From: Erythrobacter sp.
Lineage (GTDB): Bacteria > Pseudomonadota > Alphaproteobacteria > Sphingomonadales > Sphingomonadaceae
Length of the DNA: 64,000 nucleotides
Assembly: GCA_013822125.1 (NCBI GenBank)
Contig: PNJY01000004.1
Location: 1 to 64,000, forward strand
Direction: 5' to 3'
The notes below the pieces were generated by a model. The model saw nothing but the letters and a program-made list of their open reading frames with translations. It made no database searches and was not told the origin of the DNA. Of this stretch, positions 33,018 through 43,605 are shown in pieces. Position numbers and translations under genes: made by a program. Position 1 is the stretch's first letter. Every line of letters starts with the position of its first letter.

Positions 33018-33063
33018 GAGTGATTTCGAGTGAAACGGAACATTTCACGACTCGGGAATCACG
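33018..33063. repeat. Structured hairpin repeat, copy A
   Basis: GAGTGATTTCGAG-TGAAACG-GAA-CATTTCA-CGACTCGGGAATCACG; shares outer stem with copy B at 48950-48996. Confidence 0.7.
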
Positions 33064-33074
33064 ATAAAACAAGA

Positions 33075-33130
33075 ACCTGGACCTGGACCTGGACCTGGAC
33101 CTGGATTTTGATTCAATCAAAATCCAGGTC
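33075..33130. terminator. Five ACCTGG tandem hexamers leading into a perfect 16-bp inverted repeat; likely bidirectional terminator
   Basis: (ACCTGG)x5 at 33075-33104; GACCTGGATTTTGATT-C-AATCAAAATCCAGGTC at 33098-33130; between convergent putA and DUF1499 gene. Confidence 0.7.
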
Positions 33131-34020: not shown

Positions 34021-34794
34021 ATGATTATTGCCGACGGCGGCCATTTGGCATGGCGGATCAACGACATCATGGGTAGTAGTCGTGAGGGGCACCCCGGCTG
34101 CTCTACCGGCAAGAGGAACTATCGCGCCAATGGACCCATCCAAGCAACCCCCGCCCCGCTCGCACCGCGGCGCGAAGGCCGCACGGTGACCGGCGCCGGG
34201 CCCCAAAGCCATGCCGGCACACTGGCCGACCCTCGCTTCCTCGCGGGGATTCGCGAGGAGATGCGCCGCTTCGCCATGCACCAGTTGCGCACCCGCGAAG
34301 AGGCAGAGGACGCCGTGCAGGAGGCGCTGGTCGGTGCGCTGAAGAATGCAGATAGCTTCGGTGGGCGTGCAGCCTTGCGCACCTGGATCTTTGCGATCCT
34401 GCGCAACAAACTGGCCGATATCCAGCGCCAGCGCCAACGCCAGCATGTGCCGACCGCGCCCGAAGCAATCGACGACACGCTCGACCAGGGCGACAACCCC
34501 GGCCTGTTCGACGGGAGGGGCCTGTGGCTCGAAACGCAGCGCCCCTCGCGCTGGGATCACCCCGAGAAGGACCTGCACGACCGCCAGTTCCTCGCGGTGT
34601 TCGATCACTGCCTCAATCGCCTGCCGCCGCAGCAAGGGCGGGTCTTCATGATGCGCGAAGTGCTTGAACTCGATACCGACGAAATCTGCGCCGAGCTGGG
34701 GCTCACGGCGGGCAACGTTCATGTCATCCTGCATCGCGCGCGGCTGGGCCTGCGGTCCTGCCTTGAACACAACTGGATCAACCAGGGAGCCTGA
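34021..34794 (+). CDS. ECF-type sigma-70 family RNA polymerase sigma factor (start uncertain)
   Basis: LRTREEAEDAVQEALVGALKNADSFGGRAALRTWIFAILRNKLADIQRQR...LPPQQGRVFMMREVLELDTDEICAELGLTAGNVHVILHRARLGLRSCL. Confidence 0.9.
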   Translation: MIIADGGHLAWRINDIMGSSREGHPGCSTGKRNYRANGPIQATPAPLAPRREGRTVTGAGPQSHAGTLADPRFLAGIREEMRRFAMHQLRTREEAEDAVQEALVGALKNADSFGGRAALRTWIFAILRNKLADIQRQRQRQHVPTAPEAIDDTLDQGDNPGLFDGRGLWLETQRPSRWDHPEKDLHDRQFLAVFDHCLNRLPPQQGRVFMMREVLELDTDEICAELGLTAGNVHVILHRARLGLRSCLEHNWINQGA

Positions 34795-34796
34795 CC

Positions 34797-35033
34797 ATGC
34801 TGACCGATTGCCATCAGGCGAGCGTTCTCATCTCGCAAGCGAGCGAACGCCGCCTGAGCCTGACCGAGCGTGCGCGGCTGCACCTCCATCTGGGCGTTTG
34901 CCGTGCCTGCCGCAATTTCGCGGCCGACTTGCCTGTCCTGGGAAAGGCGGCGCGCGCGCTGGCTGCGGGCCTGCCACAGTCTGGCGCCGAAGAAGGAGCC
35001 GGGGTAGAACCCCGGCCCGGAACGAAAGGGTAA
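34797..35033 (+). CDS. Small zinc-finger (zf-HC2) anti-sigma-like protein
   Basis: LTERARLHLHLGVCRACRNFAADLPVL: HxxxCxxC motif; directly downstream of ECF sigma. Confidence 0.8.
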   Translation: MLTDCHQASVLISQASERRLSLTERARLHLHLGVCRACRNFAADLPVLGKAARALAAGLPQSGAEEGAGVEPRPGTKG

Positions 35034-35039
35034 GCTGAA

Positions 35040-37190
35040 TTGAAACGACTGCTGATCATCCTCGCGCTGGCGCTCGCCGTGCTGGGCTTCTTCCTGTTCG
35101 ATCTGGGCGAGCTGCTGACGCTCGAGACGTTGAAGGCGAGGCTGGGCGATATCGATGCGTTCTACCGAGCCAATTCCCTGCTGCTGATCGCGATCTTCTT
35201 CGCCGCCTATGTCGCGATCACCGCCGCATCGGTGCCCGGCGCTGCGATCATGACGCTTGCGGCCGGGGCGATCTTCGGCGTGTTCACCGGCACGCTGGTG
35301 GTGTCCTTTGCTTCGAGCCTGGGGGCGACGCTGGCCTTCCTCGCCTCGCGCCATGTGCTGCGCGACTGGGTGCAGCAGCGCTTCGGCAACCGGCTGAAGG
35401 CGATCAACGAAGGGATCGAGCGCGACGGCGCGTTCTACCTCTTTTCGCTGCGCCTGGTGCCGGTGTTCCCCTTCTTCGTGATCAACCTGGTAATGGGCCT
35501 GACCCCGATCCGCACCTGGACCTTCTATTGGGTCAGCCAGGTCGGCATGTTCCTGGGCACGATCGTCTATGTCAATGCCGGCACACAGCTGGCGCGGATC
35601 GGGAGCCTGCGCGATATCGCCTCCCCAACTCTCCTTGCCAGCTTTGCAGCGCTGGGCCTGCTGCCCTGGATCGGCAAGTGGATCATGGCCGCGATCAAGC
35701 GCCGCCGGGTCTATGCCCGCTGGACGCGGCCCAAAAAGTTCGACCGCAACATGGTGGTGATCGGCGCGGGCGCGGCAGGCCTCGTCTCGTCCTATATCGC
35801 AGCCACGGTGAAGGCCAGTGTGACGTTGGTCGAAGCGGGCAAGATGGGCGGCGACTGCCTCAACTATGGCTGCGTGCCATCAAAGGCGCTGATCAAGTCG
35901 GCCCGCATCGCCGAGCAGATGCGCCATGCGAACCGCTATGGCCTTGCCGCCGCCGAACCGCAGTTCAGTTTCAAGGCGGTGATGCAGCGCGTGCACGATG
36001 TGATTGCCGCGATCGAGCCGCATGACAGTGTGGAGCGCTATACTGCGCTGGGTGTCGATGTGGTGAAAGGCTATGCCACGATCGTCGATCCCTGGACGGT
36101 CGAGATCGCGCGTGACGACGGCACGACGCAGCGCCTTGCCACACGCTCGATCGTGATCGCCGCCGGGGCCGAGCCTATTGTCCCGCCGCTGCCCGGGATT
36201 GAGGACAGCGGCTATCTCACCAGCGACACGCTGTGGGAGCACTTTGTCCGGCTCGACGAACTGCCGCGCCGCATCGTGGTGCTGGGCGGCGGACCGATCG
36301 GATGCGAGCTGTCGCAGGCATTCGCCCGGCTCGGGGCCGAAGTCAGCCAGGTCGAGATGGAATCGCGCCTGTTGCTGCGCGAGGACGACGATGTGAGCGA
36401 ACTGCTGCGCGCCGCGCAGGAACGGGCGGGCGTCACCGTGCTGACCGGGCACAAGGCGGTGGGGTTCGATGCGGTTGACGGTCAACGCCGCCTCATCCTC
36501 GAGCAGGACGGATCGCGCCGTACCATGGCATACGACGCGCTGATCGTGGCCATCGGGCGCAAGGCGCGGCTCAAGGGTTACGGGCTCGAGGAGCTGGGAA
36601 TCGAGACATCGGCCACCGTAATCACTGACGATTATCTGGCAACGATCTATCCCAACATCTATGCCGCCGGCGACGTTGCCGGACCGTTCCAGTTCACCCA
36701 CACCGCCGCGCACCAGGCCTGGTATGCCAGCGTCAACGCGCTGTTCGGCCAGTTCAGGCGGTTCAAGGCCGATTACCGGGTGATCCCCGCAGTCACCTTC
36801 ACCGACCCCGAAGTCGCGCGCGTCGGGCTCAACGAGCGGGAAGCTGAGGCGCAAGGCGTCGCGCATGAGGTCACGACCTTCCCGATGCACGAACTCGACC
36901 GTGCAATCGCCGAAAGCGCGATCACGGGTTTCGTCAAGGTTCTGACGGTGCCGGGCAAAGACCGGATATTGGGCGTCACGATTGTTGGCGAGCATGCGGG
37001 CGAGCTGCTCGCCGAATATGTGCTGGCGATGAAGTACAACCTGGGCCTGGGCAAGATACTGGGGACGATCCACTCCTATCCGACCATGGCGGAAGCCAAC
37101 AAGTACGCCGCCGGCGAATGGAAGCGCGCGCATGCGCCCCAGCGGCTGCTCAAACTGGTCGGGTGGTATCATACCCAGCGCAGGGGATGA
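35040..37190 (+). CDS. TVP38/TMEM64 (VTT) domain fused to pyridine nucleotide-disulfide (MerA/Lpd-like) oxidoreductase
   Basis: N-terminal membrane domain (AAITAASVPGAAIMTLAAGAIFGVFTGTLVVSFASSLGATLAFLASRHVL), C-terminal MVVIGAGAAGLVSSYIAA...KMGGDCLNYGCVPSKALIKSA. TTG start. Confidence 0.9.
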   Translation: MKRLLIILALALAVLGFFLFDLGELLTLETLKARLGDIDAFYRANSLLLIAIFFAAYVAITAASVPGAAIMTLAAGAIFGVFTGTLVVSFASSLGATLAFLASRHVLRDWVQQRFGNRLKAINEGIERDGAFYLFSLRLVPVFPFFVINLVMGLTPIRTWTFYWVSQVGMFLGTIVYVNAGTQLARIGSLRDIASPTLLASFAALGLLPWIGKWIMAAIKRRRVYARWTRPKKFDRNMVVIGAGAAGLVSSYIAATVKASVTLVEAGKMGGDCLNYGCVPSKALIKSARIAEQMRHANRYGLAAAEPQFSFKAVMQRVHDVIAAIEPHDSVERYTALGVDVVKGYATIVDPWTVEIARDDGTTQRLATRSIVIAAGAEPIVPPLPGIEDSGYLTSDTLWEHFVRLDELPRRIVVLGGGPIGCELSQAFARLGAEVSQVEMESRLLLREDDDVSELLRAAQERAGVTVLTGHKAVGFDAVDGQRRLILEQDGSRRTMAYDALIVAIGRKARLKGYGLEELGIETSATVITDDYLATIYPNIYAAGDVAGPFQFTHTAAHQAWYASVNALFGQFRRFKADYRVIPAVTFTDPEVARVGLNEREAEAQGVAHEVTTFPMHELDRAIAESAITGFVKVLTVPGKDRILGVTIVGEHAGELLAEYVLAMKYNLGLGKILGTIHSYPTMAEANKYAAGEWKRAHAPQRLLKLVGWYHTQRRG

Positions 37191-37238: not shown

Positions 37239-37601
37239 ATGCGCAGCGAATCATTGTCCGTGATGTGGCTGAAGACCCTGCTCATAGTACTTTTGGCCGG
37301 ATTGATGGCGTCTGCTCAGGCTGCCGCATCTCCGGCAACGCCGACTGACAGCCACACATACTGCGCCGGCTGCTGCGATGACGAACCGGTCGATTGCAAG
37401 GCCACCGCCGCAGCCTGCAAGCGCATCTGTGGGGCTGCAGCGCTGTTCGACGGCCCGCGATTGACGGTTCCCGCCACACATATGACGCCGGAAGGTCCAG
37501 ATAGGACGGAATTTTACCCCTTCTCCGCAAGACCGGACGTGCCACCCCCGCGAATGGCAGCAACTCCGTTTATGCAAGTTTCTATTTTTTTGGAGAATTA
37601 A
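37239..37601 (+). CDS. Cys-rich secreted hypothetical protein (start may be internal, e.g. MWLKTLL)
   Basis: MWLKTLLIVLLAGLMASAQAAA signal peptide followed by YCAGCCDDEPVDCKATAAACKRIC (6 Cys). Confidence 0.65.
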   Translation: MRSESLSVMWLKTLLIVLLAGLMASAQAAASPATPTDSHTYCAGCCDDEPVDCKATAAACKRICGAAALFDGPRLTVPATHMTPEGPDRTEFYPFSARPDVPPPRMAATPFMQVSIFLEN

Positions 37602-37602
37602 G

Positions 37603-37734
37603 ATGAATGTTTTCGCAAAGATCATCGCGCTTGGAGCGCTTCTGACGTCGGGTGCTGCCTTCGCGGCGACCCCGTCGGGCTTTACCGAGGCTTGCTGCGC
37701 ACTTGCCGCATGTTGCGGCCTGCCTTGCTGCTAG
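37603..37734 (+). CDS. 43-aa Cys-rich secreted peptide (not in ORF track)
   Basis: MNVFAKIIALGALLTSGAAFAATPSGFTEACCALAACCGLPCC; GGAG Shine-Dalgarno upstream; signal-peptide-like N-terminus; 6 Cys in the last 15 residues. Confidence 0.7.
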   Translation: MNVFAKIIALGALLTSGAAFAATPSGFTEACCALAACCGLPCC

Positions 37735-37744
37735 GTGATTGAGG

Positions 37745-37774
37745 GACCGGGGCTGGCACAAACCGGCCCCGGTC
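37745..37774 (+). terminator. Hairpin (attenuator/terminator-like) between Cys-rich peptide and DoxX-like gene
   Basis: GACCGGGGC-N12-GCCCCGGTC perfect 9-bp stem followed by TTGCCTT. Confidence 0.6.
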
Positions 37775-37824
37775 TTGCCTTCCGACGAGAGGTTGCGCGC
37801 GCTGCGCCGCATGGGAGATATCGC

Positions 37825-38247
37825 ATGAAAGCTCAAAGTTTACTGCTGCTCCGGATCGGGACCGGATTGTTGCTGGTTATCTGGGGCGCGATCCGGCTTG
37901 CCAGTCCGGAAACGGGCACCGGTGTCAGCATGAAATATTATTCCGGTTTCGCCGCGGCTGAAGTCGTGCAATTGGCATGGGGTGGTATCTTGCTGGTCGT
38001 AGGCGTGCTCACGGTCCTCGGCCTGTTCCGCCGTTTCGTTTATCCTGCACAGGCGGTGATACTGGTGAGCGGCGCCTTCTCGATATGGAAATATCTGCTC
38101 GACCCGCTTGGGCTCTGGCTGCTCGACAGGGAGACCAGCCAGGTACTGTTTTTCCCATCACTGGCCGTGGCCGCGGCGACATTGGTCCTGATCGCATTCC
38201 GCGAAGATGATCGCCTCGCTATCGACAGATTGCTGGGGCGAACTTGA
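37825..38247 (+). CDS. DoxX-like small membrane protein
   Basis: MKAQSLLLLRIGTGLLLVIWGAIRLASPETGTGVSMKYYSGFAAAEVVQLAWGGILLVVGVLTVLGLFRRFVYPAQAVILVSG: four-TM DoxX-like pattern. Confidence 0.7.
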   Translation: MKAQSLLLLRIGTGLLLVIWGAIRLASPETGTGVSMKYYSGFAAAEVVQLAWGGILLVVGVLTVLGLFRRFVYPAQAVILVSGAFSIWKYLLDPLGLWLLDRETSQVLFFPSLAVAAATLVLIAFREDDRLAIDRLLGRT

Positions 38248-38664
38248 GCCACGTCTCACTGGTTGCATCGAGGTCCGGGCAGCCTGCCGAATAGGCAATA
38301 GCGCTGACTGGCGCAGCCCCCGAATCTGCCGGACCACTCTGATCGCTCCACCGCAGCGCACAATGGTCGAATCCCCGCGCGAGTGAGGGCATTACGATCA
38401 CGCGCCTGCGCCAGCCAGCCGGGACCGGCGTGCAGGCAGCAGATAGCGGCCAAGATCAATTACATAAACCAGGTCGTAGCCGCCCCCGGCCCATGTCAGC
38501 GCGGCATGTGGCCGGTTTGACTGGGTGAGGCATTCTTACGCGGTGCAGATCCTCCCGAGAATTTGCCCGCAAAGATTTCCCTCGTCGTGTAAGTTGTGTC
38601 CCTTTCCGGCGACAAACCATTATACGCTATTCCCGAAACGACCGATTATCCCAGGAGAACCCGC

Positions 38665-41600
38665 TTGCTGCCGTACCGCTCAATTTCTATGCTTCCCCTT
38701 TATGCGCTTGCCATCGCCGCGTTTGCTTCACCCGCGCTGGCGCAGCAGGCCGGTATCCAGATCGCTGTGGTTGATGCCGCGACGGGCGAGCCGGTCGCCA
38801 ACGCCGAGGTCCGGATCGAGAACGCCGAGATCGGCTTTTCGCGCACCATCCAGTCCGATGAACGCGGCCTCGCGCGGGTCGAGGGGCTGACCACCGCCGG
38901 GACTTACCACGTGACTACCAGCGCCGGGGATGAATACGCGGCCGACCAGCAGGCCAGCGTCACGCTGCGCGCCAACTTCACCAGCAGCGTCACGTTGCGG
39001 CTCGACCGGGCGGATGCCAACGGCATCACCGTTACCGGGATGCGCGGGATTACCGGGATCAACACCGTCAATGCCGAGGTTTCCGCCTCGTTCGGTGCCG
39101 AGGAACTGGCCGGATTGCCGATCGAAGGGCGCGACGTGATCGGCGCGCTGATCCGCCTGCCCAATGTGGTGCCTTCGACCGGCTTCTTCCCCGAAGCACC
39201 CTCGATCTCGATCAACGGATCGAACGGACTCGACACCAATTACCTGCTCGACGGGCTCGACAATAACGAGAACTTCCTGGGCGGGATCAAGTTTCCGGTG
39301 CCGCTGGGATTCACCCGCGAAGTGACGGTGCTCGCCAATTCCTATTCGGTCGAATATGGCCGCACGGCCAACGGCATCGTCAACTTCACCTCACCATCGG
39401 GCAGCAATGACTACCACGGCGAGGTCTATGCGCTGGTGCGCCCGGGCCAGCCGCTCGACGCCAATTCGCCATTCCCGCGCCGCGACCTGTCAGGCAATGC
39501 GGTGGGCGAGAGCTTCGAGCGGTATCAGGCGGGTGCCAGCCTTGGCGGGCCGATCGTGCGCGACAAGACCTTCTTCTACGCCAATTTCGAATATACCCGC
39601 GATCGCAATCTGCAGGTGGTCGATGCGCCTGCGCTGGGCGTGGTCGATACGGTCACCGGCAACAACGAATTCTATCTCGGTTCGGCCCGGCTCGATCACC
39701 GGTTGACCGAAGACTGGACGCTGGGGCTGCGCGCCAACATCGGCCGGGTGACGATCGACCGCCCCGGCGGCGGGCTGGGCGGCGGCAATGTGACCTTCCC
39801 TTCAGCCGGCTCCGAGCAGGACCGTTTTTCGAGTGTGATCGCGGCGACTGCCAGCTATTCGGGCGATGTGTGGAGCTATGACGGCGCGGTGCAGTATAGC
39901 CGTTTCCGCTGGGATTACGGCGAGCCTAAAGGCGGCCCCGGCCCGCAGGTCGTGGTGCGCGATCCGTCTGGACTCACCGTGGGCGTGGTCGGCCATCCCG
40001 GCTTCGTGTTCGACGATCTGGAGGAAACCTGGCAGACCACGCACCGCTTCCAGCGCACCAGCGGCGACCACCGGTTGAGCTTCGGCGCCGATGTGATCGG
40101 TTCCGATTTCGATCTGCTGGGCGGCGGCAATCCCGATGGCAATTTCACGCTTGATCTGACCGCACAGCAGCTGGCGACGCTCGCGGCAAGCGGCGCGGGG
40201 CTTGGCCTCACCGCGCAGGACGTGCTCGCGCTCGATCCGGTGGTGGCGAACTATTCGGTCGAACTGCGCCCGCAAAGCTTCGGCACCGCCCAGACGCAGC
40301 TGGCCTTCTACGTCGAGGACGAATGGCAGCTTTCATCGCAGCTGACTGCGACGCTGGGTGTCCGCTGGGATTATGACAGCCTGACGGGCAAGGGCGCGAC
40401 TGGCGGCGACTATGACAATATCGCCCCGCGCTTCTCGCTCAACTATCGCCCCGATGCCCGCTCCAGCCTGCGCTTTGGCGCGGGGCTGTTCTATGGCAAA
40501 ATGTCCTACGCGGTGATTTCCGACGCGCTGCAACGCAACACCACTTCGCCCGGGTTCCTCGCGCAGCTTGGCCAGTTGCAGGCGCTGGGTGTGATCCCGG
40601 CGGGAACCGACCTTGCCGATGTGACCTTCGACGGCAATCTCACCGTTTCGCCCGCTTGCGCCACGGTGGCTCAATGCCCTTCGCCCGGCGAGGTCCAGAA
40701 CCTGCGCGATACGGCGACGATAAACGAGGCGCGGATCCTCAGCCCGACCGGCTATGACAGCCCATACAGCGTGCAACTGAGCGGCAGCTACCAGTATCAG
40801 GCGACCGACACACTGACGCTTTCGGCAGACGTGATCTACAGCCGTTCGCACAATCTGGTGCGGCTTCGCGATCTCAATGCGCCCGCGCCTTTCACCCCCA
40901 ATCTCGCCAATCTGACCGCCGCCAATATCGCACTGCTTCAGGGCCAGAGCGACAATGCCGCGCGGCTGGCGCTGGCGCAGACGCTGGGGCTGGTGCGTTC
41001 GCAGGCCGATGCCGATGCCTCGCGTCCGGTTGCTCCGGTTGCGGGCGGGGCGCGGCAGATCACCGTTTCGGAAACCGAGGGCGAGGCCGAATACAAGGCG
41101 CTGATCCTGCAGGCGAACAAGGCGCGCGGCGATGATTTCTATGCGCTGCGGCTGTCCTATACGCTCTCCAGCCTCAAGAACGACACCGATGATATCAACT
41201 TCCGCGCCGCCAATTCGAACGATTTCAGCACCGAATGGGGCCCGTCGGCCAACGACCGGCGGCATGTCATTTCGGCGGTCGGCTTCCTCTATCCGCTTGA
41301 GGGACTGACGATGAGCGTGGCCGGGCTGTTCCAGTCGGGCCAGCCGGTCAACTTGGTGCCCGATGCGCGGATCTTCGGCACGCAGGACCTCAATGGCGAT
41401 GGCGCCAGCTTCGGCGAAAATTTCGTCGGCAATTCCGATCGTTACCCCGGGGCTAGCCGCAATTCGGAGCGGCTGCCGTGGTCGGCCACGGTCGATCTTG
41501 GGTTGCGCTATGCTCTGCCCGGGCTCGCCGGGCTGGAGTTGAGCGCGGACGTATTCAACGTTTTCAACACCAACAATGAATCGGGCTTTGCCAATGCGGC

Positions 41601-41703
41601 GACAACGTCCAATCAGGTCCAGTTCGGCGGCGGGGCGCCGTTCGTCCAGCGCAACGCCGGGCCGCCGCGCCAGTTCCAGTTCGGGGCCGCCCTGAAATTC
41701 TGA
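38665..41703 (+). CDS. TonB-dependent receptor with N-terminal carboxypeptidase regulatory-like domain (Oar-like)
   Basis: Signal LPLYALAIAAFASPALAQ; VVDAATGEPVANAEVRIENAEIGFSRTIQSDERGLARVEGL; plug and long barrel ending RQFQFGAALKF. TTG (38665, good RBS) or ATG (38689) start. Confidence 0.9.
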   Translation: MLPYRSISMLPLYALAIAAFASPALAQQAGIQIAVVDAATGEPVANAEVRIENAEIGFSRTIQSDERGLARVEGLTTAGTYHVTTSAGDEYAADQQASVTLRANFTSSVTLRLDRADANGITVTGMRGITGINTVNAEVSASFGAEELAGLPIEGRDVIGALIRLPNVVPSTGFFPEAPSISINGSNGLDTNYLLDGLDNNENFLGGIKFPVPLGFTREVTVLANSYSVEYGRTANGIVNFTSPSGSNDYHGEVYALVRPGQPLDANSPFPRRDLSGNAVGESFERYQAGASLGGPIVRDKTFFYANFEYTRDRNLQVVDAPALGVVDTVTGNNEFYLGSARLDHRLTEDWTLGLRANIGRVTIDRPGGGLGGGNVTFPSAGSEQDRFSSVIAATASYSGDVWSYDGAVQYSRFRWDYGEPKGGPGPQVVVRDPSGLTVGVVGHPGFVFDDLEETWQTTHRFQRTSGDHRLSFGADVIGSDFDLLGGGNPDGNFTLDLTAQQLATLAASGAGLGLTAQDVLALDPVVANYSVELRPQSFGTAQTQLAFYVEDEWQLSSQLTATLGVRWDYDSLTGKGATGGDYDNIAPRFSLNYRPDARSSLRFGAGLFYGKMSYAVISDALQRNTTSPGFLAQLGQLQALGVIPAGTDLADVTFDGNLTVSPACATVAQCPSPGEVQNLRDTATINEARILSPTGYDSPYSVQLSGSYQYQATDTLTLSADVIYSRSHNLVRLRDLNAPAPFTPNLANLTAANIALLQGQSDNAARLALAQTLGLVRSQADADASRPVAPVAGGARQITVSETEGEAEYKALILQANKARGDDFYALRLSYTLSSLKNDTDDINFRAANSNDFSTEWGPSANDRRHVISAVGFLYPLEGLTMSVAGLFQSGQPVNLVPDARIFGTQDLNGDGASFGENFVGNSDRYPGASRNSERLPWSATVDLGLRYALPGLAGLELSADVFNVFNTNNESGFANAATTSNQVQFGGGAPFVQRNAGPPRQFQFGAALKF

Positions 41704-41717
41704 AGGAAAGCAGCACG

Positions 41718-42989
41718 ATGTCAGCGATGCAGAACTTGCAGGGTTTGATCGGCATCGCCTGCATCCTGCTGCTGGCATGGGGGCTGTCGGAAAACCGCGC
41801 CGTCCGCCCCGGCTGGCGCTGGATCGGCGGAGCCGTGCTGCTGCAATTGGCCATCGCGCTGATCGTGACGCGCGTCCCGTTCGTGTGGCTGCTGGTCGGA
41901 TATGCCAACAAGGCCGTTTCGGCGATCGAGGCTGCGACGCTGGTCGGATCGAGCTATATGTTCGGCTTTACCGGCGGCGCACCCTCGCCTTTCGTCCTCA
42001 AGGAAGGCGCGCAGGAACCGCTGATCATCGCCTTCGAAATCCTGCCGCTGATCGTGGTCTTTTCGGCGCTCTCGGCGGTGCTGTGGCACTGGGGCGTGCT
42101 GCGCGCGGCGGTGCGCGGGCTATCGTGGGCGCTGCGCAAGACCATGGGGGTGAGCGGTGTTGTCGGCCTCGCCGGAGGGGCCACGATTTTCCTCGGCGTG
42201 GTCGAATCCCCGCTGGTGCTGCGCGCCTGGCTGGCGCGGATGAACCGGGCGGACCTGTTCATGATCATGGTGCTGATCATGGCCACGATATCGGGCGCGA
42301 TCCTGGTGCTCTATGCCACCACGCTATCGCAAACGGTGCCCAATGCGGTCGGCCACATGATCGTCGCCTCGCTGATCTCGCTGCCCGCCGCAGTGCTGAT
42401 CGCGCGGCTTATGGTGCCCCCCGATCCGGTGCAAGCCGCAGCGGACGACACCGCCGAGCCTGAACTCCATTATGCCAGCAGCATGGATGCGGTGATCCGC
42501 GGCACGATGGAGGGGGTGCAGCTGATGCTGGCGGTGATCGGCATCATCATCGTCGTGTTCGCGCTGGTCAATCTGGCCGATCAGGCGCTGGCACTGCTGC
42601 CGCTGGTGGGTGGCGAGGCGCTGACGCTGGGGCGGATGTTCGGCTGGCTGTTCGCGCCGCTGATGTGGGCCACGGGTGTGCCCTGGGATCAGGCGGGGAC
42701 AGCGGGCAGCCTGATGGGCACCAAGGCGATCCTCAACGAATATGTCGCCTATCTCCAGCTCGCCGCGCTGGCGCCGGGTACGCTCGACGCACGCAGCCTG
42801 CTGATCGTCGTCTATTCGCTTAACGGAGTGGCCAATCTGGCCAGCGTCGGGCTGCTGGTGTCGGCCATCGCCACGCTTGCGCCCGAACGGCGAGCCGAAG
42901 TGGCGGGCCTTGGCATGAAGAGCTGGATCGCGGGCAATCTCGCCTCGCTAATGACGGGGGCCATGATCGGCCTCGTCACCTGGGCCTGA
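41718..42989 (+). CDS. CNT-family (NupC) nucleoside transporter
   Basis: GSSYMFGFTGGAPSPFVLKEGAQEPLIIAFEILPLIVVFSALSAVLWHWGVL...GVVESPLVLRAWLARMNRADLFMIMVLIMATISG...MGTKAILNEYVAYLQL. Confidence 0.93.
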   Translation: MSAMQNLQGLIGIACILLLAWGLSENRAVRPGWRWIGGAVLLQLAIALIVTRVPFVWLLVGYANKAVSAIEAATLVGSSYMFGFTGGAPSPFVLKEGAQEPLIIAFEILPLIVVFSALSAVLWHWGVLRAAVRGLSWALRKTMGVSGVVGLAGGATIFLGVVESPLVLRAWLARMNRADLFMIMVLIMATISGAILVLYATTLSQTVPNAVGHMIVASLISLPAAVLIARLMVPPDPVQAAADDTAEPELHYASSMDAVIRGTMEGVQLMLAVIGIIIVVFALVNLADQALALLPLVGGEALTLGRMFGWLFAPLMWATGVPWDQAGTAGSLMGTKAILNEYVAYLQLAALAPGTLDARSLLIVVYSLNGVANLASVGLLVSAIATLAPERRAEVAGLGMKSWIAGNLASLMTGAMIGLVTWA

Positions 42990-42999
42990 GGCGCGCGCG

Positions 43000-43605
43000 A
43001 TGTTCGATGCCCGCCTGCGTCCGCTGATAGATCCTCCGCTCAATGCTGCGGGGCGCTGGCTGGCGGCGCGCGGCGCGGGCGCAAATGCCATCACGCTGTC
43101 AGGGATGGTGCTGGCAATTGCCGCCGCCTGGACGATTTCGGAAAGCCATTATCTTGCCGGACTGGCGCTGGTCCTCACCAATCGCCTGTTCGACGGGCTT
43201 GACGGTGCGGTCGCCCGCCAGCGCGGGTTGACCGATTTCGGCGGCTATATCGATATCGTCGGCGACTTCGTGTTCTATGTGGCCGTCCCCGTCGGGTTTG
43301 GCCTTGCAGCCCACGAGAACCTGTTACCTGCGCTGGTGCTGGTGGCCAGCTTTGCGCTCACCGGAACCAGCTTTCTCGCCTTCGCCACCTTGGCAGCCAA
43401 GCGCGGGATTGAAACCACCGCGCATGGCCGCAAGAGCTTTTTTTACAATACCGGTCTGGCTGAAGGGACGGAAACGATCCTGGCGTTTGCGGCCATGTGC
43501 CTGTTTCCGCAGAGCTTCGCGCCGATCGCGTGGTTCTATGCCGCGCTGTGCCTCATCACCGTGGTCCAGCGCAGCCTGGCCGCGCGCGCGGCGTTCAACG
43601 ATTAG
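43000..43605 (+). CDS. CDP-alcohol phosphatidyltransferase family protein
   Basis: NRLFDGLDGAVARQRGLTDFGGYIDIVGDFVFYVAVPVGF: DGxxAR(x8)G(x3)D(x3)D motif. Confidence 0.9.
   Translation: MFDARLRPLIDPPLNAAGRWLAARGAGANAITLSGMVLAIAAAWTISESHYLAGLALVLTNRLFDGLDGAVARQRGLTDFGGYIDIVGDFVFYVAVPVGFGLAAHENLLPALVLVASFALTGTSFLAFATLAAKRGIETTAHGRKSFFYNTGLAEGTETILAFAAMCLFPQSFAPIAWFYAALCLITVVQRSLAARAAFND

Follow-up and report, generated by a model that had tools for sequence, protein, structure and literature searches.

A putative metal-sensing upstream ORF paired with a tiny, predicted secreted cysteine-pair peptide in Sphingomonadaceae

Can an ORF of only 43 codons, which seems to encode a secreted peptide with three pairs of adjacent cysteines, be a real gene, and if so, what is it good for and how is it switched on? 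The question is raised by a locus in a stretch of 64,000 nucleotides from an Erythrobacter sp. contig, which we call the window. A first-pass annotation had proposed an unlisted ORF at 37603-37734 of the plus strand, 43 aa long, and we obtained the same position and the same translation, MNVFAKIIALGALLTSGAAFAATPSGFTEACCALAACCGLPCC. The good ribosome binding site that had been claimed is indeed there, and we also confirmed that the stop of a preceding Cys-rich ORF ends 1 base 5' of the ATG. The elements of the peptide gene are:

37603..37734, plus strand: 43-aa peptide gene; six Cys are invariant in its family (n = 18), and the core changes among close relatives are synonymous only.
37603-37665, plus strand: signal peptide, approximately residues 1-21, judged by motif.
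37666-37731, plus strand: predicted mature peptide of 22 residues, ATPSGFTEACCALAACCGLPCC.
37592-37595, plus strand: GGAG, the Shine-Dalgarno (SD) sequence of the peptide gene, within the final codons of the upstream ORF and 7 nt 5' of the ATG.
37743..37776, plus strand: 14-bp GC-rich hairpin directly 3' of the peptide stop (z = -3.65), without a clear T-run.

No Pfam or NCBIfam family covers the 43-aa peptide, the mature form has no relatives among the solved structures of the PDB, and in the open-access literature we found neither this family nor a Cys peptide linked to CopL described. Among 201 genomes of the same family we detected two strong homologues in other genera, which are 71% and 66% identical and share the mature C-terminus. 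From searches at the level of family, order, class and genus, together with a scan of named genomes (Novosphingobium, Sphingobium CECT 9361, Erythrobacter and Sphingomonadaceae MAGs), we built a family of 18 distinct members; several of them come from closely related species, so that the counts do not represent independent events. All six Cys of the motif CC-x4-CC-G-x2-CC are present in 18/18 members. G39 and A30 are also invariant, and A21 and A9 are kept too. Codon comparison of the window with G116, G374 and G124 gave a pS of 0.69-0.79 versus a pN of 0.00-0.03 for the 14-residue core ACCALAACCGLPCC, whose 14 codons carry 7-8 synonymous changes in each comparison, while the signal peptide drifts with a pN of 0.25-0.28. 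The position of the AxA cleavage motif is kept across the homologues and the SD sequence is retained. Nearly all homologues have a strong hairpin about 10 nt 3' of the stop, each time with an unrelated sequence; those of G397 and G361 are textbook terminators with T-runs. From these data we conclude that the 43-aa ORF is a real gene and that selection acts on the Cys core of its peptide. The first-pass annotation had taken missing conservation or a missing synonymous pattern as the mark of a spurious ORF, and both are present. Of its interpretation, an unlisted Cys-pair peptide that looks secreted and lies in a metal/redox context is supported, and this peptide is conserved.

The family is patchy and, in the searches run, limited to the Sphingomonadaceae in the broad (GTDB) sense, with no convincing match beyond them among 387 class-wide genomes. 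Two weak class-wide matches (L065 and L066) turned out upon inspection not to be secreted Cys peptides. We also looked for plasmid-borne copies of the peptide and found none. Shorter secreted ORFs that end in CG(L/M)PCC and do not have the first two Cys pairs were seen at ~7549 in G440 (L074), where the ORF adjoins a multicopper oxidase-like gene, and at ~7442 in G011 (L076). They are possibly distant relatives or the result of convergence.

How such a gene may be controlled is suggested by the ORF in front of it. This is the most informative part of the locus, and the first-pass annotation had overlooked that it has the anatomy of a metal-sensing, putatively ribosome-stalling uORF:

37239..37601, plus strand: Cys-rich, apparently exported ORF of 120 aa, candidate CutF/CruR-like sensor uORF, with a Cys core and PPPR at a fixed spacing.
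37542..37553, plus strand: PPPR of the uORF, proposed as its stalling motif; 52 nt separate the end of the last Pro codon from the peptide ATG.

An alternative ATG at 37263 would shorten the uORF to 112 aa. With either start it stays below 150 aa and has a hydrophobic N-terminus, whose signal peptide was judged by eye. The window uORF has no Pfam match of its own, and its comparison with DUF2946 (PF11162) gave no match. In most family members a Cys-rich, apparently exported ORF of ~100-120 aa is located directly 5' of the peptide. These ORFs are just 21-30% identical to the window copy, yet they retain the Cys core, with the pattern CC...C...C-x3-C, and the PPP(R/N). The last Cys and the PPP are 36-40 residues apart in 19/19 PPP-bearing uORFs, and the last PPP codon is found 47-65 nt before the next ATG in 16/17 cassettes (standard deviation 5 nt), the exception being L059 with 121 nt. 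The distance between the uORF stop and the next ATG varies more (standard deviation 19 nt): some stops come as early as 40 nt before this ATG, others fall shortly after it, within the next gene. In the window uORF 16 residues follow the last Pro of PPPR, in many homologues 3-9. Because the place of the PPP is fixed relative to the next start codon and not to the end of its own protein, it points to a role in cis. A PPP within the last 20 residues is otherwise rare (2/422 called genes). Judged by its sequence, the upstream ORF has the anatomy of a metal-sensing uORF of the CutF/CruR/CopL type, which may act by stalling.

Some observations speak against the sensor reading. The window shows neither a DUF2946 match nor a significant CutF-type stem-loop over its SD, and several carriers have an incomplete uORF or none: the uORF of G331 (L071) has no PPP and ends in PTP, that of L062 (7672-7956) looks frameshifted, the peptide being intact in both, and in L061/G1122 and in G1110 the peptide is present without such a uORF. 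In its favor, a clear hairpin directly 5' of the SD of the next gene was found at the related uORFs of L117, L118, L120, L124 and L132.

With a profile of the window-type uORFs we found a second set of uORFs. Since the search model contains PPPR, what counts as independent in this set is limited to the genes that follow, the distance to the next ATG and the matches to DUF2946. The second-set uORFs align to the window-type profile (hhalign 97%), and 4/12 match DUF2946, the CruR/CutF family, weakly (best E 3e-4). Other tiny secreted Cys-rich peptides, unrelated in sequence, follow such related uORFs at 48-57 nt: a 39-mer ending in ACGCCGCC (L116), a 63-mer with DCCEKMKAEGKKCCCEG (L117), 78- and 80-mers with ECCEKMK..CACCDKM (L118 and L120), and peptides with DCCAGKDCCKDGADCC (L125) and ECCCCKKDEHGKMACC (L129). 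L124 likewise encodes one ~50 nt after the PPP codons, and in L136 a tiny Cys peptide is placed between the uORF and a copA-copB operon (multicopper oxidase and CopB). Some of the second-set peptides are near a DUF411-like or an outer-membrane efflux-like protein, both identified by eye. The genome of the window itself contains a second cassette (L133, C221:1743-2249, minus strand). Its uORF ends in PEPPPPRTPR, and a 49-mer ending in SCCDLVLACCDAAMSCCP starts 48 nt after the last PPP codon; the peptide, MKKYIIVAAVLLGSSSAAFAAAPEQVANLAMSCCDLVLACCDAAMSCCP, is followed by a terminator. These other loci, together with the second cassette in the same genome, show that the pairing of uORF and peptide is a recurrent design. 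Near DUF411-like genes in L006/L077 (G139) and L129 (G333) we noted a further triple Cys-pair type, in the form of small secreted ORFs that contain ACCAALDACCEQAMDCC.

The cassette of the window is surrounded by the following genes:

34021..34794, plus strand: ECF-type sigma factor of the TIGR02943 family; the true start is probably further in.
34797..35033, plus strand: zinc-finger anti-sigma factor (NF052368).
35040..37190, plus strand: fusion of a VTT (TVP38-like) domain and a MerA/lipoamide dehydrogenase-related pyridine nucleotide-disulfide oxidoreductase.
37825..38247, plus strand: DoxX-like membrane protein; weak PF07681 match below the cut-off.

The fusion gene is the conserved upstream neighbour of the cassette in the type-A loci, and its oxidoreductase is devoid of the C-terminal Cys pair of MerA. 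A DoxX-like gene occupies the same place in L069, L070 and L087-L089. Further 3' of the cassette (38596-43605) we find genes for a TonB-dependent receptor that contains a carboxypeptidase-regulatory-like domain, for a nucleoside-transporter-like protein and for a CDP-alcohol phosphatidyltransferase-like protein; L069 and L070 keep the order of the receptor and the nucleoside-transporter-like gene. The gap after a putA-like gene (~33040-33110) holds a short tandem repeat that reads WTWTWT/SRSRSR in overlapping frames.

Is the peptide then a bufferin? The first-pass annotation had likened the locus to MNIO-modified, bufferin-type systems. It had noted that the window is free of a DUF692/MNIO enzyme, with which we agree, and had suggested a search of the full genome; this search gave two MNIO genes on other contigs (C126 and C1), each with its own precursor alongside. 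The link to such loci is real as far as the neighbourhood is concerned. An MNIO gene is located within 20 kb of the peptide gene in 7/18 carriers (G116, G1037, G374, G391, G1092, G331 and G1022), and in L063 the cassette comes directly after a complete bufferin cluster with ECF sigma and NrsF, the gene order being DUF2282, MNIO, DUF2063, DoxX, ECF sigma, NrsF, uORF, peptide, thioredoxin, DsbD. MNIO genes are present in 14/18 carriers versus 37/101 family genomes (Fisher p = 0.001, which is optimistic given that the carriers are related). In the relatives, the bufferin genes sit upstream of the cassette and have their own precursor. The part of the idea that did not hold concerns the peptide itself: with E values up to 1 allowed, neither DUF2282 nor any other Pfam family matches it, inspection by eye shows no EGKCG motif, and a peptide gene directly before an MNIO gene was never seen among the loci examined. 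No MNIO or DUF2063 partner gene is found directly downstream of the peptide in the window, and the genomes of two near-complete carriers (G1028 and G1110) contain no MNIO gene at all. With no match to a Pfam or NCBIfam profile, no MNIO in cis and carriers that have no MNIO, we rejected the peptide as a bufferin. It is a companion of bufferin loci.

We favor, with a probability of roughly 55%, a two-gene cassette in which a nascent-chain metal sensor uORF would control a secreted Cys-pair peptide as its effector, the soft metal most likely being Cu(I). The Cys motif of the uORF, just outside the ribosome tunnel while the protein is synthesized and exported, would sense a thiophilic metal just as the ribosome is reading the PPP(R) codons. 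Altered pausing at the PPP would raise or lower the expression of the peptide gene, whose ribosome binding site overlaps or closely follows the end of the uORF. The peptide would be exported by Sec and cleaved after AFA, and the 22-residue mature form may bind the soft metal, likeliest Cu(I), via its three vicinal Cys pairs and serve in the periplasm as a buffer similar to metallothioneins. At loci with downstream thioredoxin and DsbD-like genes, the products of these genes could keep the peptide thiols reduced. Copper is the likeliest metal because copper operons are headed by relatives of the uORF and because bufferins buffer copper. The 43-aa peptide is probably a tiny metal-binding protein that is made on demand.

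Other explanations have to be weighed against this. The peptide could be a RiPP precursor on which an MNIO encoded elsewhere in the genome acts in trans, modifying the Cys core into a bufferin-like product or a metallophore. The enrichment of MNIO genes among the carriers, their proximity in 7/18 and the two MNIO genes in the genome of the window would fit, bufferin precursors without a linked MNIO gene are known (PMC12452194), and the non-Cys residues of the core are more invariant than a plain chelator requires. We nevertheless think this unlikely, given the two near-complete carriers that have no MNIO, the adjacent precursors with which both MNIO genes of the window's genome are already paired, and the rule that bufA comes before bufB, a place in which the peptide was never seen; the missing profile match speaks against it as well. 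Another function one may consider is that of a secreted thiol-redox peptide, a disulfide relay or a trap for sulfur, arsenic or mercury that works with the MerA-like reductase, DoxX and thioredoxin/DsbD and is no copper buffer. Vicinal thiols are good binders of As(III) and Hg(II), and the neighbours are redox proteins (VTT-FAD oxidoreductase, DoxX-like, thioredoxin and DsbD_TM). However, the peptide-uORF pairs of G397, G361 and G331 come without these neighbours, related uORFs are tied to copper genes and the FAD oxidoreductase does not have the Cys pair expected of MerA, which makes this function unlikely in our eyes.

The invariant C-terminal block, the variable signal peptide and the strong hairpin directly 3' of the stop could also be those of an arrest or leader peptide, meaning that the 43-aa ORF would itself regulate DoxX or another downstream gene, by way of its Cys codons or in the manner of SecM, with the hairpin as attenuator. 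We consider this quite improbable: the hairpins of G397 and G361 are ordinary terminators, the downstream gene varies by locus (DoxX, thioredoxin or none), and at two loci, G361 and L059, the following gene has the opposite orientation, leaving nothing to regulate. An attenuator for DoxX was rejected because of such loci that have no co-directional downstream gene. That the ORF is a chance product without function, as its shortness and its patchy distribution could suggest, can hardly be believed in view of 18 homologues with six Cys, purifying selection at the codon level and the kept SD and cleavage site.

Returning to the sensor-effector cassette, one may speculate that sphingomonads possess a whole class of such cassettes, in which a stalling metal-sensor uORF drives an exchangeable tiny Cys peptide, and that the invariant ACCALAACCGLPCC core forms either a defined Cu(I)-thiolate cluster or a modified metallophore, in both cases different from the known metallothioneins and bufferins. 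This broader proposal is tentative, and we would currently not bet on it. If it is true, the recurrent pairing of a uORF with a tiny secreted Cys peptide adds a class of periplasmic metal-buffer peptides and shows how such buffer peptides get switched on. Tiny secreted Cys peptides tend to escape annotation pipelines, and the cassette offers a search rule: a Cys motif, 36-40 residues, PPP, ~50 nt and the ATG of a short secreted Cys ORF. The position of cassettes beside bufferin clusters suggests that metal buffering in the periplasm is built in layers, which are subject to related stress control.

In comparison with known systems, the peptide resembles bacterial metallothioneins in being very short and Cys-dense with no other function evident. 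It differs from them by its signal peptide, which predicts a periplasmic location, and by having its Cys solely as three vicinal pairs, with no match to solved structures. With the bufferins Buf1/Buf2 (PMC12452194) it shares a small, here predicted, Sec-exported Cys-rich product and a copper/ECF-sigma context, and in several relatives bufferin cluster and cassette are close together. The vicinal Cys pairs, the other gene order and the occurrence in near-complete genomes that have no MNIO set it apart.

On the side of the uORF, CopL of Xanthomonas/Stenotrophomonas (copLAB) is similar by gene order to the L136 uORF, which also heads a copA-copB operon, but in L136 the gene of a tiny Cys-rich peptide separates the uORF from copA. 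In Bordetella pertussis, CruR uses a CXXC motif to sense copper during ribosome stalling at RAPP, and the spacing of 45 residues between the two motifs is conserved in over 2000 homologues (PMC9426467). In our cassettes the Cys motif-Pro motif distance is similarly fixed, at 36-40 residues, and the uORF likewise heads a metal-related gene set; however, the motifs are a CC...C...C core and PPP(R/N), the window uORF has no direct match to DUF2946, the family of CruR, and CruR has a long intergenic region and controls a TonB-dependent transporter. CutF of Rhodobacter capsulatus (cutFOG operon) is Sec-exported and combines CxxxC with a Pro-rich motif at the C-terminus; its control of the gene that follows works through a stem-loop over the SD of that gene (PMC9973294). 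CutF and CruR regulate in opposite directions, and sensor uORFs of this type are reported to target oxidases, efflux pumps, outer-membrane transporters and chaperones (PMC9973294, PMC9426467). The gene after CutF encodes a multicopper oxidase, here it is the 43-aa Cys-pair peptide; the window is without a significant stem-loop, and its PPP is 16 residues from the C-terminus, compared to a published filter of 15 (PMC9973294). What the window shares with CutF is a small exported Cys-motif ORF with a C-terminal Pro-rich motif directly 5' of a putative metal-homeostasis gene, and several relatives of its uORF also have the hairpin before the next SD.
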